A DNA stretch of 64,000 nucleotides from Caldilineales bacterium (GTDB taxonomy: Bacteria; Chloroflexota; Anaerolineae; J102). Both the position numbers and the translations under genes were made by a program. Shown piece after piece: positions 748-8,272 of the stretch (positions are counted from its first letter, which is position 1; every line of letters starts with the position of its first letter). Location: NCBI GenBank assembly GCA_019695115.1, contig JAIBAP010000003.1, forward strand, positions 1-64,000, written 5' to 3'. The notes beneath the pieces are model-generated. The model was given only the letters and a program-made list of their open reading frames with translations. It was not told the origin of the DNA and searched no databases.

Positions 748-3700
748 ATGATACCTCGAACGATCGGATATACTTCTCCGGGCGACATCTCCCAACGAGG
801 GGCGATTGTCGTTCTACTCACAGTGATCCTATCCCTGTTGGCAGGTGGGTCGGCAGGTGTGTTGGCGCGAACCAGGGTCGCCGACCAAATGGCCATGCTC
901 GCTGCTCCCGCCGACGCCATCGGCATCTGGATTCTGAACGGACAGACGACCGCAGCGCCGGCAATGCGCGCGGCGGGGGCCAAGTGGGCGCGCATCGCCA
1001 TCAGCTGGCGCACGATCGAGTCCAGCCCGGGCGTCTACAACTGGAGTAGCGCTGATAGCCGGGTCGACTATGCCCAGCAGCAAGGCTATCAGATCGTATT
1101 GGCGGTGATGAGTAACCCAAGCTGGGCCGCCGCCACCGAGTGCGGGCCGCTCTATGCCCAGCATATAGCCACCTACGCTAATTTCATGAAGGCAGTTGTG
1201 CAGCGATACAGCGTTTCACCGCACAACATCCGCTATTTCGAGCTGGGGAACGAGCCGGACAACGCCGATGTGGCCGGCTTTGGCTGGGTGGGCGGCTGCT
1301 GGGGCAAAGGCCCGGGCCAGGCCGAGGGCGCAGGCGGGGCCGCCTATGCCAACATGCTCAAAACCGTTTATCCGGCCATGAAAGCAGCCAACGCCAACAT
1401 CATCGTGGCGATGGGTGGCCTCAGCTACGAATCGTGGTGGAGCGAGGGCGGCCCCTTCGACCCCAATTTTCTAACCGATCTGCTGGCGGCGGGCGGCGGC
1501 GCTTACTTCGATGTCATCAACTATCATTTCTACGAGGCGTTCTCGTACAAGTGGGGTTCGGTGGTGGGCAAGGGCCAGGTCTTGCAAGAGAAAGTGCGCC
1601 AGGCCACCGGCCAGACCAAGCCGCTGATGATCACGGAAATCGGCACACCCAGCCAGAAGCCCGCCGGCACATCCGACCAGAACACCTATAGCGAGGATTT
1701 GCAGGCGCGCTATGTGATCAAGGGCCTGACCCAGGCCGTCGCCGCCGGCATCTATCCTGCCATCTGGTTTCAGGCGCAGGATTTGCCGTCCAGCAGCCTG
1801 GGCTATAGCTTTGGGCTTTTGCGCACAGACCTGACCTACAAACCCGGCTACTATGCCTATCGCACCCTGGCTGCCGAGCTGGCCGGCGCGACTTACGCCG
1901 GCAGAGCCACCGGTTTGAATACCAGCATCGAAGGCTATCGCTTCGTCAAAGCAGCGCAAAGCAAATTGATCCTCTGGTACACCGGGACGACTGCGGTCAA
2001 TCAGCCTTTCTCGCTCAGCGCGCCGGGTGCATCGCTGCGGGTGGTGGACAAACTGGGGGTGCAGATTTTGATCGTCGATGGCGAAACGGGCGACCTCGAC
2101 GCCGCCCGCAACGGCTCGGTGACCATTGCCGTCGGCCCCAGCCCGCTCATCGTCGAAGCCCTTGCTGCGGCGAACACCCCCACCCCGACCGCCACCCGCA
2201 CAGCCACGCCCACCAGCAGCGGCTCGCCCACAAGCACACCCACCTCGACCCCGTTCAAAACCCTGCGCGTCAACAGCGGCGGGCCTACCGCCACCGACAG
2301 CGGCGGACGGGTTTGGGCCGCCGACCAACTGTATGTGGCTGGCGATTGGGGCTACACCGGCGGCGCGGCCAAATCATCGACGCAGGCGGTGGCCGCCACC
2401 AGCGACGACGCCCTCTTCCAGCGTTGGCGCGAGGGCGCAGGCGACTACTATTTCACCATTCCCAACGGCGTCTACCAGCTGAAGCTGCGCTTTGCCGAGA
2501 TGCAGGCCACTGCCGCCGGCCAACGGCTGATGAAGATCGTCATCGAGGGCAGAACGGTGGAATCGAGCCTCGATGTCTATGCCGTGGCCGGCCGGTACAC
2601 CGCCCTCGACCGCAGCTACCGGGTCACGGTCGATGACGGCCTGCTTCACATCGATTTGGCGAAGCTATCGGGCAGCACCTACAAGACCATGATCGCGGCC
2701 ATCGAGATCGTATCCGCCAACTCGACGCCCACGCCCACCGCTACACCCACACGAGTTGCGACCTCCACCCCCACCGTTACGGCCACAGCCACGGTCACCC
2801 CCACCCCCACTCTGACTGCCACCGCCACCATCACACCCACCGCCAGCGAAACGGCCACCATCACACCCACCCCCAGCGAAACCCCCACGGCCACGATCAC
2901 GCCGACGGCGACGATCACACCCACCGCCACCGCAACGGCCACCGTCACCCCCACCCCTAGCGAAACCCCTACGGCCACAATCACGCCGACGGCGACGATC
3001 ACTCCCACCGCCACCGCAACGGCTACCGTCACCCCCACCCCCAGCGAAACAGCCACGGCCACGTTCACGCCAACCGCCACCGCAACCCCCACACCCGCGC
3101 CCTTTGGCCCGGTGCGGGTCGATAGCGGCGGCGGCGACTTCACCGACGCCGGCGGACGCGTCTGGGCCGCTGACCAATTGTATGTGGCCGGCGGTTGGGG
3201 CTACGCACTCGGCGCGGCCAAGTCAGCGACGCAGGCGGTGGCCGGCACCACCGACGATGCTCTCTTCCAGCGTTGGCGCGAGGGCGCAGGCGACTACTAC
3301 TTCACCATCCCCAACGGCGTCTACCAGGTGACGCTGCGCTTTGCCGAGATGCAGGCCACCGCCGCCGGCCAGCGGCTGATGAAGATCGCCATCGAGGGCA
3401 AGACGGTAGAGTCGAGCCTGGATGTCTTTGCCGTGGCCGGTCGTTTCACCGCTCTCGACCGTAGCTACCGGGTCACGGTCGGCGACGGCCTGCTTCACGT
3501 CGATTTGGTGAAGCTATCGGGCAGCACCTACAAGACCATGATCGCGGCCATCGAAATCATCGCCATCACGCCGACCCCCACACCCACAACGACGCCGACC
3601 CCCACCCAGACCGCCACAGCAACGCCGACCCCCACCCAGACTGCTACGGCAACGCCGACCCCCACCGAGACGCCGACAGCGACCCCGACCGCCACCGAGA

Positions 3701-3837
3701 CGCTGACCCCTACTGCCACCCCCACTCCGACCGAAAGCCCCACTCCCGAACCATCGCCCACCCCCACCCAGACCCCGACCGAGACGCCGTCGCCGTCGCC
3801 CACCCCCACCGACACCCCCACCCCGGAAATCCCCTGA
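748..3837 (+). CDS. Secreted glycoside hydrolase with two malectin-like domains
   Basis: This is a 1029-residue exported protein. A hydrophobic stretch at residues 18-40 acts as a signal or anchor. Residues about 55-450 look like a (beta/alpha)8 glycosidase of the GH39/GH5 type, with ELGNEPDN (Glu169) as candidate acid/base and ITEIGTP (Glu297) as candidate nucleophile. Two malectin-like carbohydrate-binding domains follow at about 506-652 and 789-938. They are separated and followed by Thr/Pro-rich linkers, and the chain ends in a Thr/Pro tail. The two malectin modules are nearly identical, so the duplication is recent. An ACAGGAG ribosome site supports the ATG at 748. The substrate cannot be told from sequence; a plant or microbial polysaccharide is likely. 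Confidence 0.82.
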
Positions 3838-3844
3838 ACCGTCC

Positions 3845-4906
3845 ATGCCGCCCACACACACCGTCCCTTCCGTCCGCCTGACCAGCCTGGCCGCCTGCGC
3901 CGGCTGAGCGAGCAAACTGGCCGCCGAGGCCCTGGCGCAGGTCCTGCGCCCTCTCCACGAAACCTATACCGGATTACGCGATGACAACCTGCTGGTAGGG
4001 CTGGATGTGGTCGATGACGCCGCCGTTTATCGCCTGAACGACGAATCGGCCCTGGTCATCACCCTCGATTTCTTCACCCCTATCGTCGACGATCCCTATG
4101 CCTATGGCGCCATCGCCGCCGCCAACAGCCTGAGCGACATCTACGCCATGGGGGCCAGGCCCATCCTGGCCCTCAACATCGCCGCCCTCCCCAAGACCTT
4201 GCCGGTCGAAGTCTCGGCCGAGATCCTGCGCGGCGGGGCCGAGAAGGCGCGCGAGGCGGGCGTGGTGGTGGCGGGCGGGCACACGGTACAGGATTCCGAG
4301 CCGAAATTCGGGCTGGTGGCCCTGGGGCTGATTCATCCCGACCGGGTCACGCGCAAGGGCGGAGCCTTGCCCGGCGACCGGCTGCTGCTGAGCAAGCCGC
4401 TGGGGGCGGGCGTGGTGACGACGGCGCTGAAGAACGACAAGGCAACGGCAGCCGAGGTCGAGGCTGCCACCCGCAGTATGCTCCGGCTCAACGCCGCCGC
4501 CGCTCGCATCGCCTACGACTTCGGTGCCCATGCCGTCACCGACATCACCGGTTTCAGCCTGCTGGGGCACGGCTGGGAGATGGCCGAACACAGCGGCGTC
4601 GGCTTTCGGCTGCGTTTTGGCGCCCTGCCCTGGCTGGAAGGGGCCGAAAGGTTGGGCAGAGATTGGGTCTTTCCGGGCGGCGCCCACGACAACCGCCGCT
4701 TCTACAGCCCCCATGTCCGTTTCGACCCTGCCCTGGCCGAATGGCAGCAGGTGCTCTGCTTTGGCCCCGAGACATCGGGCGGGCTGCTGATGGCTCTGTC
4801 GGCCGACCAGTCTGCACCCGCCCGGCTGGCGGCCGCCGCCCAGGGCCTGGCCCTGTGGGAGATCGGCGAAGCCGTCCCCGGCGACGCCATCGAAGTCCTG
4901 GCCTGA
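3845..4906 (+). CDS. selD: Selenide, water dikinase with selenocysteine active site
   Basis: SelD makes selenophosphate from selenide and ATP for selenocysteine and selenouridine synthesis. Read from the ATG at 3845, the frame meets TGA at 3905-3907 (codon 21) and then stays open to 4906, giving 353 residues (E. coli SelD has 347). The N-terminal sequence VRLTSLAACAG-U-ASK aligns with the E. coli active-site region around Cys17 and Lys20, putting U21 at the catalytic position and Lys24 at the lysine. Downstream SelD motifs are intact: NLLVG, DDAAVY, TLDFFTPIVDD, AGGHTVQDSEP, DITGFSLLGHG and PETSGG. A hairpin just after the UGA resembles the fdhF SECIS. Reading only from Met55 (4007) would remove the active site. 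The gene starts 8 bp after the hydrolase stop. Confidence 0.9.
3905..3953 (+). promoter_or_regulatory. Candidate bacterial SECIS element in selD
   Basis: The UGA at 3905-3907 is followed by a perfect 7-bp hairpin, GGCGCAG at 3934-3940 and CTGCGCC at 3944-3950. GAG at 3926-3928 could add pairs with CTC at 3951-3953. The apex reads GCAGGUCCUGC, almost the same as GCAGGUCUGC at the top of the E. coli fdhF SECIS, where SelB contacts the GU of the loop. The loop lies about 33-36 nt after the UGA, near the upper limit of the spacing known for bacterial SECIS elements. Confidence 0.75.
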
Positions 4907-4910
4907 GAAT

Positions 4911-5008
4911 GGAGAGAGTTGCCAACTTTTGGAAAGTTGGCAACTCTTTGACTAAGATCGGAGAGAGTTGCCAACTTTTGGAAAGTTGGCAACTCTTTGA
5001 CTAAGATC
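4911..5008. repeat. Tandem pair of 49-bp hairpin repeats
   Basis: Two nearly identical 49-bp units lie in tandem. Each holds a perfect 14-bp stem, GAGTTGCCAACTTT / AAAGTTGGCAACTC, around a TGG loop (4916-4946 and 4965-4995). They sit between the convergent selD and SCO genes, where they could act as a bidirectional terminator. The second unit includes the TAG stop codon of the SCO gene at 5001-5003. Confidence 0.85.
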
Positions 5009-5603
5009 CGATCATGTATTCCAAATCCTCGGCCATGAACTCCGGTGAGATGTTGGGCGGCCAGATGAGCTTCACCCGGCCTGCGGGGTCCACCACCATG
5101 ATCGAAGCGGTGTGATCGACCAGGTAACCGCTCTGCCCCTCGACTTCGTTCTTGGCGAAATAGACGCCGAAAGGGGTGGCGGCCTGCAACACCTCTTGTT
5201 CCGAGCCGGTGAGACCGAGAAAAGTGGGGTTGAACGCGGCCATATACGGGGCCAGTTTTTCCGGCGTGTCGCGTTCGGGGTCCACCGAAACCATCAACAC
5301 CTGGACATCATCGGCCTTGTCGCCTAGCAAGGTCAGCGCCTGGTTGAGGCGGGCCAGAGTGGTGGGGCAGACGTCGGGGCAGTAGGTGTAGCCGAAGTAG
5401 AGGACGGCGTGCTTGCCGCGGAAGTCGCTCAGGGCCACGCGCTCGCCGGTGTGTGCGGTCAGGCTGAAGTCGACAGGGTCTTGCGACTGCAACACCTGGC
5501 CGTGAAAGATGTGCGGGCGCAGCCGTGGGACGACAACGATAGCCGCCAGGGCAATGACAGCCAGGGCGATAAGGGCAATGAGGATCGGTTTAGGGATGCG
5601 CAT
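5001..5603 (-). CDS. SCO1/SenC family copper chaperone
   Basis: SCO proteins deliver copper to the CuA site of cytochrome c oxidase or act as thiol reductants at the membrane. The ATG at 5603 gives 200 residues. An N-terminal membrane helix (about 6-26) is followed by a thioredoxin fold with the copper motif YCPDVCP (Cys75 and Cys79) and the partner histidine in LVDHTAS (His164). All three metal ligands are present. An open frame runs further upstream, but its translation comes from repeat-like intergenic DNA and is not taken as coding. A second SCO-like gene lies just upstream. Confidence 0.87.
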   Translation of the reverse strand: MRIPKPILIALIALAVIALAAIVVVPRLRPHIFHGQVLQSQDPVDFSLTAHTGERVALSDFRGKHAVLYFGYTYCPDVCPTTLARLNQALTLLGDKADDVQVLMVSVDPERDTPEKLAPYMAAFNPTFLGLTGSEQEVLQAATPFGVYFAKNEVEGQSGYLVDHTASIMVVDPAGRVKLIWPPNISPEFMAEDLEYMIGS

Positions 5604-5616
5604 GGGGTGGAATGGC

Positions 5617-5686
5617 GGATTGTGGATTGCGAATTGCGAAATGGTTACGGAACACGGAACACGCAACACGCAACACGCAATACGCT
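5617..5686. repeat. Heptamer repeats, two families
   Basis: A GATTGCG-type tract (5617-5640) is followed by a CGGAACA/CGCAACA-type tract (about 5649-5686). Both have a 7-nt period with one or two variable positions. They fill the gap between the two SCO-like genes. Confidence 0.7.
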
Positions 5687-5688
5687 CC

Positions 5689-6405
5689 TTATGGTGCATA
5701 ACACAGAAACAGGTGCGCCGCCTCGTAGCCCAGCTTGCCCACGCCCTGGCTGTTTCGCACTTCCTGGCCCAGCAAGCGGATGTGATCGAGGATGCGGGCG
5801 GCGTCGGGCGGGTTGGTGGTGGGGCGATAGACGGCGCGGAGGATGCCCCAGTCATCGACCAGCGCCAGGGCCGGGCTGAGGGCGAAGCTGCCATCGGGCT
5901 GAGCCTCGTAAAAAACCTCGAAGCCGCCGCCAACGATGGTCTTCAGCCGGTCGGGGTCGGGGCTGCTGAGGAAGCGCCAACCGGCCGGGCCAGCCCCCTG
6001 CGCCTGGGCGAGATTTTGCAGGGCGGCGGGCGTGGCCTGGGATGAATCGAGGGCGATGCTGACAAGCGCGACGGGCACACCCCCGGTCTCGGCCTCGCCC
6101 AGGCGGGCGTTGACCTCGGCCATGATGGCGTCGGTGGCGGGGCAGCCGTGGGCCGGGCAGCCGGTGTAGGTGAAGTTGTAGAGGACGAACTGCCCGCGCA
6201 GGTCTTCGTTGGTCACGGTCTGGCCGTTCTGGTCGGTCAGGGCAAAGCCGGGGGCCAGACGGATGCGCGGGAGCACCTTGATCGGCTGGAAGATGACGAA
6301 GGCCAGCAATCCCACCAGGACGAGGGCAAAGACGGCCAGGGCCAGCCGCTGCCAGGCTCGCAACTGGAAGCCGGGCGAGGGAGGGGCTTGGGTGAGGGTG
6401 GTCAT
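5689..6405 (-). CDS. SCO-like membrane thioredoxin, altered metal site
   Basis: The protein has 238 residues: a membrane helix at about 20-40, then a SCO/peroxiredoxin-like thioredoxin fold with LTDQNGQTV, YNFTYTGCP and ALVDDWG. The cysteine pair is Cys83-x4-Cys88 (CPAHGC), not the CxxxC of copper-binding SCO proteins. The position of the copper histidine in the SCO next door reads SPALALVDD here, with no histidine. It may be a thiol-redox protein rather than a copper chaperone (inference). Its ATG overlaps the TGA of the EpsI-like gene (ATGA), so the two are probably co-translated. Confidence 0.7.
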   Translation of the reverse strand: MTTLTQAPPSPGFQLRAWQRLALAVFALVLVGLLAFVIFQPIKVLPRIRLAPGFALTDQNGQTVTNEDLRGQFVLYNFTYTGCPAHGCPATDAIMAEVNARLGEAETGGVPVALVSIALDSSQATPAALQNLAQAQGAGPAGWRFLSSPDPDRLKTIVGGGFEVFYEAQPDGSFALSPALALVDDWGILRAVYRPTTNPPDAARILDHIRLLGQEVRNSQGVGKLGYEAAHLFLCYAP

Positions 6406-7106
6406 GCGTGGGCGGCGCTGAAAAACTGGCGGATGAAGGCCTTCTGCAGGGCCAGGGTGTCCTCGACCGAACCATCGAGCGGGGCCGTGACCTTGAACAG
6501 CACGGCCCCCTCATCGGCCTCGCGCAACGAGTTGGGATAGAGGAAGAAATAGAGGACGACGTGCTCCCACTGTTCTTTGCGGGCGTTCACGCGCAGGGCG
6601 TAGAGTTCGCCCCCTCCTTCCATCTCCACCGGCTCCGACATCACCTCGGTCTGCCAGCCATCGGCGGTGTAGCAGATCTGCGGCGAGTGAAACGACTTGG
6701 TCTGGCGGCTGCCGATGAGGCTGAGCCAGACATAGCGGCCATCGGGCCGTGTGTAGCGCCGGTAGACATATTGCTCCGGCTCCAGCAGGATCTGGACTTC
6801 GATGTTGGTCTGGGGGATGTCGGCGCCCTGCCAGTCGCCGATCTGCAACGGCAGCGCGGCCAGGTCGCCTTGCAGACTGAAATCGAAGCCGGCGGCCACG
6901 GTTCGCTCGCGCTCGGTGCGTCGCCAGCGGTCGATGTCGGCCACAAAGCCATAGCTCGACCCCGCCCCGGCCGCCGGTTGCCAGAGCTGGCGGCCGTAGA
7001 ACACCGCCACCGCCGCCAGCGCCAGCAGCAGCACGGCCAGCAGGATTACAAGAGGTCGCTGCGAATCTCCCGGCAGCCGAGCAGCCGGGCGAACAGAATC
7101 AGACAT
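6402..7106 (-). CDS. EpsI/exosortase-associated protein
   Basis: This 234-residue protein has one N-terminal membrane helix (about 20-42) and an extracytoplasmic EpsI-like domain. Recognisable segments are LPLQIGDWQG, the YVWLSLIGSRQTKSFHSPQICY block and LYFFLYPN. EpsI-like proteins accompany or are fused to exosortases and serve exopolysaccharide or surface-protein export. Here the gene follows the exosortase and overlaps its 3' end by 61 bp, and it overlaps the next gene by 4 bp, so the three form one transcription unit. The exact biochemical role of EpsI is not established. Confidence 0.8.
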   Translation of the reverse strand: MSDSVRPAARLPGDSQRPLVILLAVLLLALAAVAVFYGRQLWQPAAGAGSSYGFVADIDRWRRTERERTVAAGFDFSLQGDLAALPLQIGDWQGADIPQTNIEVQILLEPEQYVYRRYTRPDGRYVWLSLIGSRQTKSFHSPQICYTADGWQTEVMSEPVEMEGGGELYALRVNARKEQWEHVVLYFFLYPNSLREADEGAVLFKVTAPLDGSVEDTLALQKAFIRQFFSAAHA

Positions 7107-7879
7107 GCGAAAGCGAAGAGAAAGAAGACGATGCCCGAATAGTCATGATAGTAGGTGAATCCGGCCTCGACGCCCCAGCGGTCGGCCACCCACAGCAGGC
7201 TGCTGACCCGCAGGACGTTGCCGAGGATGGCGATGGGGACGGCCATCAACGCCAGCAGCAGTTTGCGCGGCCACGAGCCTTCGACGACATAGGCAAACAC
7301 GGCCACCAGCGTCAGCAGGGCGACGATGGAGCGCAGCCCCGAACATTGCGCCCCCACCACCAGGTTGGCGTTGGGCAGGGTGACGGCCATGCCCTCGACG
7401 ATGACATCCATCCCCAACGCCTGCACCACCGCGCCCGAAACCCCGCCGGTAAACTGGGCCATGGGCAGGCTGCTGGCCTCGATGAAGGGCAACGGCACCA
7501 TGAAGACGAGAAAGGCCAGGGGGAAGGCCAGGCGACGGAGGGCGGCGGCGCCCCACAGATAGAAGACGACCCCGGCAAAGAGGGCGATCATCCCCAGGGC
7601 GGCCAGAAAGAAGGCCCGCTCGAACAGGGCGACCAAATAGACGGCCAGGGCGGCGATGAGCAGGAACAACCCCAGGTTGCTGGGACGGCGCTCGACGCGG
7701 GGCAGCAAACGCCAGGCAAAGAAAGCCGACACCAGCGGCACCAGCACACCGTGCGAGTAGTAATCGTTGCTCCACCACTCGTAGGCCAGCCAGCGCAGGG
7801 TGGGCAACAGCACCAGCAGCCCGACCAGGAAGATGGCGGCGTGAAGCCAGAGGGTGGAGCGACGGAGCGAAGACAACAT
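7046..7879 (-). CDS. Exosortase, membrane transpeptidase
   Basis: Exosortases are multi-pass membrane cysteine proteases thought to cut and re-anchor surface proteins with a C-terminal sorting helix. The 277-residue product has about eight membrane helices and the three conserved catalytic positions: Cys169 in GAQCSGLRS, Arg214 in NVLRVSS and His235 in YYHDYSG. The ATG at 7879 lies only about 10 nt after a TATAAT box on the minus strand, so the mRNA may be nearly leaderless; longer upstream starts would precede the promoter. It heads an operon with the EpsI-like and SCO-like genes. No target with a PEP-CTERM-type tail was recognised in the window. Confidence 0.87.
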   Translation of the reverse strand: MLSSLRRSTLWLHAAIFLVGLLVLLPTLRWLAYEWWSNDYYSHGVLVPLVSAFFAWRLLPRVERRPSNLGLFLLIAALAVYLVALFERAFFLAALGMIALFAGVVFYLWGAAALRRLAFPLAFLVFMVPLPFIEASSLPMAQFTGGVSGAVVQALGMDVIVEGMAVTLPNANLVVGAQCSGLRSIVALLTLVAVFAYVVEGSWPRKLLLALMAVPIAILGNVLRVSSLLWVADRWGVEAGFTYYHDYSGIVFFLFAFACLILFARLLGCREIRSDLL

Positions 7880-7888
7880 GGTTGTGGC

Positions 7889-7917
7889 ATTATACACGAA
7901 GCCCGGCGAATCGTCAC
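7889..7917 (-). promoter_or_regulatory. Promoter of the exosortase operon
   Basis: On the minus strand GTGACG (7912-7917), a 17-bp spacer and a consensus TATAAT (7889-7894) lie just upstream of the exosortase ATG. The expected transcription start would fall within a few bases of that ATG. Confidence 0.6.
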
Positions 7918-7928
7918 CGCCGGGCCGA

Positions 7929-7957
7929 TTGACACCGCCCGCTGCTTGCAGTAACAT
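7929..7957 (+). promoter_or_regulatory. Promoter of the propeptide-protease operon
   Basis: A consensus TTGACA (7929-7934), a 17-bp spacer and TAACAT (7952-7957) point rightward, divergent from the exosortase promoter. The predicted start is about 7964, giving a very short leader if the ATG at 7970 is used. Confidence 0.65.
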
Positions 7958-7969
7958 CCAGGTCAAGCG

Positions 7970-8272
7970 ATGAAACACCATCCACCCACGCCCGCCATGC
8001 CAACCAGCAAGTTCAGCCCGGCCTTCGAGTCTGCTCTGCGCGACCGCCCCCAGGCAGAGGTGGCGGCGATCGTCCGTTGCGACCGCCTCGACCCCGACCA
8101 TGTGGCCGAAGCCGAGTCGCTGGGGCTAACCGTCAGCAGGCAGCTCCGCCTCATCCGCAGCCTGGCCGTCGCCGGCCCGGCCGCCGCCCTGCTGGAACTG
8201 GCCGCGGCGCCCTGGGCCTTGAGCATCGAACCCGACCAACCCGTTCATAGCACCGCGGAGGTTCAGTCATGA
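7970..8272 (+). CDS. Stand-alone subtilase propeptide-like protein
   Basis: This small protein has 100 residues from the ATG at 7970, or 91 from the ATG at 7997 (MPTSKFS). It resembles the N-terminal propeptide-like part of the subtilase encoded next: both have an F/HPxxxxAL start, an Ala-Ile-Val-Arg or Val-Ile-Ile-Arg strand, and an Ile-x-x-Asp-x-Pro-Val-His ending. It may act as a separate intramolecular-chaperone-like domain or inhibitor of that protease (inference from resemblance and context). Its TGA overlaps the protease ATG (ATGA), so the two are translationally coupled. No signal peptide is visible. The start is uncertain because neither ATG has a clear ribosome site. Confidence 0.6.
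   Translation: MKHHPPTPAMPTSKFSPAFESALRDRPQAEVAAIVRCDRLDPDHVAEAESLGLTVSRQLRLIRSLAVAGPAAALLELAAAPWALSIEPDQPVHSTAEVQS

Follow-up and report, generated by a model that had tools for sequence, protein, structure and literature searches.

A Chloroflexota selD gene with an in-frame UGA at its active-site codon and two consecutive conserved hairpins downstream

The window, a 64-kb stretch of DNA, contains a full-length selD gene (3845 to 4906, forward strand) in which an in-frame UGA falls on the codon for the catalytic Cys. This UGA is almost certainly decoded as selenocysteine (Sec21) in a SelB- and SECIS-dependent manner, a reading that draws on the gene, the codon, the Sec machinery of the genome, and the conservation of a hairpin downstream, all of which were found as the preliminary description of this DNA had proposed; Sec insertion itself, the enzymatic activity of SelD, and the contact with SelB we infer from sequence. 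Codon choice in Sec-encoding selD genes also appears to be under selection for two hairpins following the UGA.

When the UGA (3905 to 3907, forward strand) is read through, the frame encodes a selenophosphate synthetase (selenide, water dikinase) of 353 amino acids. That TGA is its sole internal stop, the terminal codon also being a TGA, and the full-length frame matches the TIGR00476 SelD profile with 359.4 bits (curated cutoff of 125) and contains both AIRS domains of Pfam (AIRS and AIRS_C), in agreement with the earlier statement that the frame is intact on either side of the UGA. The alignment with E. coli SelD (PDB 3u0o; E value of 5.9e-70) spans nearly the whole length, placing residue 21 on Cys17 and Lys24 (codon at 3914 to 3916, forward strand) on Lys20. 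The product thus exceeds the family cutoff and carries Cys/Sec and Lys at the positions equivalent to E. coli residues 17 and 20, and the UGA had been correctly placed at the catalytic Cys with a Lys three residues later. A conventional start-to-stop gene caller would be expected to begin at a GTG at 4007, as had also been foreseen, and the list of open reading frames does contain this shortened frame (4007 to 4906, forward strand; 299 amino acids), from which the SelD active site would be deleted.

The selenophosphate synthetase encoded by selD would be a selenoprotein in its own right. With the ribosome paused at the UGA, SelB, carrying GTP and Sec-tRNA-Sec, would bind the GGU apex of a downstream SECIS within the coding sequence and insert selenocysteine at residue 21, which is the catalytic residue of the flexible loop that binds Se, after which translation would run on to 4906. 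SelD would then produce selenophosphate from selenide and ATP, and SelA would use the selenophosphate to form Sec-tRNA-Sec, which would be needed in turn for SelD and for the other selenoproteins of the cell.

The gene upstream of selD (748 to 3837) encodes a large protein rich in Thr and Pro, which has two malectin domains and a GH5-like cellulase domain, and ends 7 nt before the selD ATG. There is no obvious Shine-Dalgarno sequence before selD, and this, together with the 7-nt gap, makes it possible that its translation is coupled to that of the upstream gene. Directly 3' of selD (4912 to 5010) are two tandem copies of the near-palindrome AGTTGCCAACTTTTGGAAAGTTGGCAACT. It has 30 strand-wise matches in the genome (at most two mismatches; near-palindromes count on both strands), compared with 0 for the reversed control, and has the appearance of a REP-like element dispersed among intergenic regions. 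Convergent with selD, at 5001 to 6405 and 6402 to 8101 (both on the reverse strand), are genes for two SCO1/SenC-like proteins followed by a DUF3485 protein and an EpsH-type exosortase.

A SelD match was found in 53 of 61 genomes (60 relatives and the genome itself), and an in-frame TGA is listed for all but one (G048), whose locus (C1:851650-852870) is the only class-level SelD match for which no internal stop is listed. The search for U-containing SelD in related genomes suggested by the preliminary description found UGA at the same codon in all 53 class-level selD loci whose active-site codon was read directly. Across 80 selD loci from other genomes, this codon is TGA in 49 and TGC or TGT (Cys) in 31; the SelD family is known for such alternation of Sec and Cys at a single codon. 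Those named relatives whose SelD is 60 to 64% identical are Anaerolineae and Caldilineales MAGs, for which reason the organism is assigned to Chloroflexota. The preliminary description had regarded close relatives with Cys codons and no conserved hairpin as evidence against selenocysteine; what the relatives have instead is a retained UGA and a hairpin conserved with covariation. One relative (G020, C278:12390-14257) has two adjacent selD copies with the active-site UGA in both, the second being cut by the contig end.

Counting from the U of the UGA, the distal SECIS hairpin (3934 to 3950, forward strand; GGCGCAG-GUC-CUGCGCC; −11.3 kcal/mol) occupies nt 30 to 46, and its GGU apex (3940 to 3942, forward strand; nt 36 to 38) is the predicted contact for SelB. 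The likeness of its apex to that of the E. coli fdhF SECIS had been pointed out earlier and holds, as GCAGGUCCUGC is nearly identical to GCAGGUCUGC and one base longer, but the hairpin is unremarkable as a single sequence and its GGU lies at +36 rather than +22. The distance from the UGA is 31 nt to a 7-nt loop (AGGUCCU) or 33 nt to a 3-nt loop (GUC). The fold of 3905 to 3953 alone is unexceptional relative to shuffled sequences (z = −0.24), bSECIS-like hairpins follow 8.5% of the 1,582 TGA triplets in this GC-rich window, and the apex motif has a chance expectation of 0.37 per window. An Rfam search of the 64-kb window found nothing. The significance of the distal hairpin comes from comparative evidence, namely, covariation, stability against a synonymous null in Sec genes, and the absence of both in Cys homologs.

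Among 75 Sec-selD sequences, the seven pairs of the distal hairpin are formed in 87% of cells, versus 30 to 57% for slid versions, and both sides of a pair are changed in 38 cells, versus 10.8 ± 3.1 in shuffles (0 of 500 as high). Examples include the change from G31-C45 to A31-U45 and that from G33-C43 to A33-U43. Compared with synonymous recodings that use each gene's own codon usage, the energy of nt 30 to 46 is lower in the 75 Sec genes (mean z = −2.67), while in 31 Cys genes the z value is 0.09. The search for the distal hairpin in 22 held-out loci from class-level genomes gave a z value of −2.70 (combined P = 7e-12, the loci being assumed to be independent). RNAalifold predicted no pairs in the whole 51-column alignment, which is attributed to a proximal stem that shifts register and to genes that have no distal stem; pair counting on the named structure and synonymous-codon nulls were used in its place. 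Based on these comparisons, a putative SECIS hairpin downstream of the selD UGA is conserved.

A single SECIS hairpin had been described in this region, and the distal hairpin bears that out, but a second conserved hairpin, located closer to the UGA, had been overlooked. This proximal hairpin (3919 to 3931, forward strand; GGCC-GCCGA-GGCC) covers nt 15 to 27 in the window gene (nt 15 to 28 in Sec-selD genes generally) and emerges from the synonymous-codon null in Sec genes, with z values of −2.05 in those with the distal hairpin, −2.16 in those without it, and −0.05 in Cys genes. The same 22 held-out loci have a z value of −2.07 (combined P = 6e-9, again assuming independent loci). In a sliding profile of 40 cluster representatives, clear dips occur at exactly two places, in windows starting at nt 13 to 16 and nt 28 to 31, and values elsewhere are near zero; the profile of Cys genes does not dip at either place. 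Dips are present at both sites (−1.83 proximal and −2.6 distal) in the 26 clusters that have the distal hairpin but only at the proximal site in the 14 that lack it. Of the 81 genes with a distal hairpin, 77 also have a proximal stem of 4 bp or more, and the paired arms of this stem vary in sequence among relatives. The proximal hairpin does not reach significance in the window gene by itself (P of about 0.24). A count in a fixed register lends modest support, with 64% of cells paired and the +1 register doing equally well. This is because the register of the stem varies from lineage to lineage, and the evidence thus rests on register-free tests. Only in Sec genes does each of the two hairpins exceed the stability expected from protein sequence and codon usage, which points to selection on codon choice.

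The GGU starts at nt 22 in fdhF and in the fdhA of the host genome but at nt 36 in the window selD. In most genes, the distal stem is only 11 to 13 unpaired nt away from the UGA when the proximal hairpin is skipped, which suggests that this hairpin folds away the extra length. As a hypothesis, which we hold tentatively and at somewhat less than even odds, most Sec-selD genes may have a two-hairpin SECIS in which the proximal hairpin, about 11 nt after the UGA, folds away about 13 nt and thereby brings the distal GGU to the canonical distance for SelB, while the minority without a distal hairpin would mostly carry a GG apex on the proximal one. Some variation in spacing is evidently tolerated, since the other selenoprotein hairpins of the genome have stems 15 to 19 nt from the UGA, with no tandem proposed for them.

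The two hairpins might also have the opposite roles. SelB would then bind the proximal one, as the actual SECIS at the canonical spacing of 11 nt, and the distal one would be accessory. The proximal stem starts at nt 15, which is the E. coli spacing (PMC8659212), and GG occurs at nt 21 and 22, its apex, in 12 of 15 genes without a distal hairpin versus 16 of 81 genes with one (Fisher P = 1.2e-5). However, those same figures show that genes with both hairpins seldom have GG at the proximal apex, and their GGU is distal in 65 of 81 cases, with (C/A)GU in 15 more. Selection is also stronger on the distal hairpin (z of about −2.6) than on the proximal one (about −1.8), and we consider this exchange of roles unlikely. 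The present bacterial model consists of one stem-loop at a variable distance of 16 to 37 nt. Apices far from the UGA could stay within reach of SelB through a second hairpin that is under selection, and taking this hairpin into account would improve SECIS search models.

The host genome (a draft assembly of 5.99 Mb in 135 contigs, with an estimated completeness of 100%) contains the full Sec-decoding system that had been predicted from selD. The selB gene (contig C20) scores 306.7 bits, or 334.9 bits with a C-terminal piece in frame (cutoff of 242.25), selA (C61) scores 552.8 bits, and the tRNA-Sec (C40; about 95 nt; anticodon TCA) scores 73.1 bits. These three genes and selD are on four separate contigs. 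The absence of selB and tRNA-Sec had been named as grounds for doubt, and both are present. The window selD thus combines the features of a bacterial selenoprotein gene: a UGA at the Cys codon of its homologs, selA, selB, and tRNA-Sec in the genome, and a downstream hairpin that fits the bSECIS model.

The expectation of further selenoproteins is also borne out, as at least five more UGA-containing genes were found. One encodes FdhA (C26) and has a canonical SECIS, its TGA being in the CARL-U-HS motif; a second FdhA gene (C38) has TGC at this Sec codon. Three genes of the AhpC/TSA family have TGA at the redox-active Cys and a hairpin nearby (FTUPFC on C28, LGULPC at 136 kb on C3, and TFGUINC on C39), as does an Rdx gene (CVPU on C58). 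With Sec scored as Cys, the best models for these four are SelL-related redox protein, ResA, and SelW/T/H, the cutoff of the SelL-related model being passed by one of its two matching genes. The five are thus FdhA, two SelL/Prx-like proteins (C28 and C3), a ResA/TlpA-like thioredoxin (C39), and a SelW-like protein (C58), and in each the UGA is at a redox-active or metal-ligand position. Ordinary annotation would cut all five short. Including SelD, the genome would encode at least six selenoproteins, a count from a search of a few chosen families. A profile search of the genome for 2-selenouridine synthase gave no match above the cutoff. A scan of the 64-kb window for UGA-containing selenoproteins gave nine candidates, of which only selD had a family match, the other eight being dismissed by eye.

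These genes bear upon whether the UGA might be reassigned or otherwise read through, by near-cognate suppression or by insertion of Cys or Trp, rather than decoded as Sec. The evidence here concerns the codon and not the residue, and Cys is functional at the active site of many SelD proteins. However, neighboring genes use ordinary stops and selD itself ends in TGA, tRNA-Sec, selA, and selB are present, and in the families examined the UGA sits at redox-active or metal-ligand Cys positions, all of which makes such a reading very improbable. Least probable of all is a true TGC or TGT that appears as TGA through sequencing error or nonsense mutation, which would take a single base change in a draft assembly but is contradicted by the same TGA in every class-level locus read from independent genomes (for which reason sequencing error was rejected), by the complete Sec system, and by hairpin selection seen in TGA genes only.

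Decoding of the UGA as Sec would place the window selD in a common and long-known group, a point that the preliminary description, otherwise correct in its reading of the gene, had missed. In a set of 223 genomes, 19% of the prokaryotic SelD genes encode Sec, always at the same position (PMC4561486), only one prokaryotic selenoprotein is more widespread than Sec-SelD (PMC13188914), and 394 such proteins have been counted in 383 organisms (PMC5029168). The window selD does not differ in kind from these, sharing the family (TIGR00476), the Sec position, the in-frame UGA, and the downstream coding SECIS. The known cases are extended by a Chloroflexota lineage whose Sec system is complete; our literature search found no mention of Sec-SelD from these Chloroflexota. 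The same search, which covered openly readable papers, found no description of a conserved second selD hairpin, which may be novel.

In the E. coli SECIS, 11 nt separate the UGA from the upper stem-loop, in which G23 and U24 are important (PMC8659212). The window selD resembles fdhF in its apex, with GGU in the loop, but that apex lies 14 nt farther from the UGA, with a separate hairpin filling the gap, and the bulged U17 reported for the E. coli SECIS was not identified in it. The bSECIS model specifies a loop of 3 to 9 nt, a stem of 4 to 16 bp, a G in the first two loop positions, a spacing of 16 to 37 nt, and an energy of −7.5 kcal/mol or lower (PMC13188914), and the distal hairpin agrees with it on every point. 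Overall, this appears to be an ordinary bacterial Sec-SelD gene whose fresh point is its two consecutive hairpins, both under selection in genes of this type, where the model has one stem-loop.
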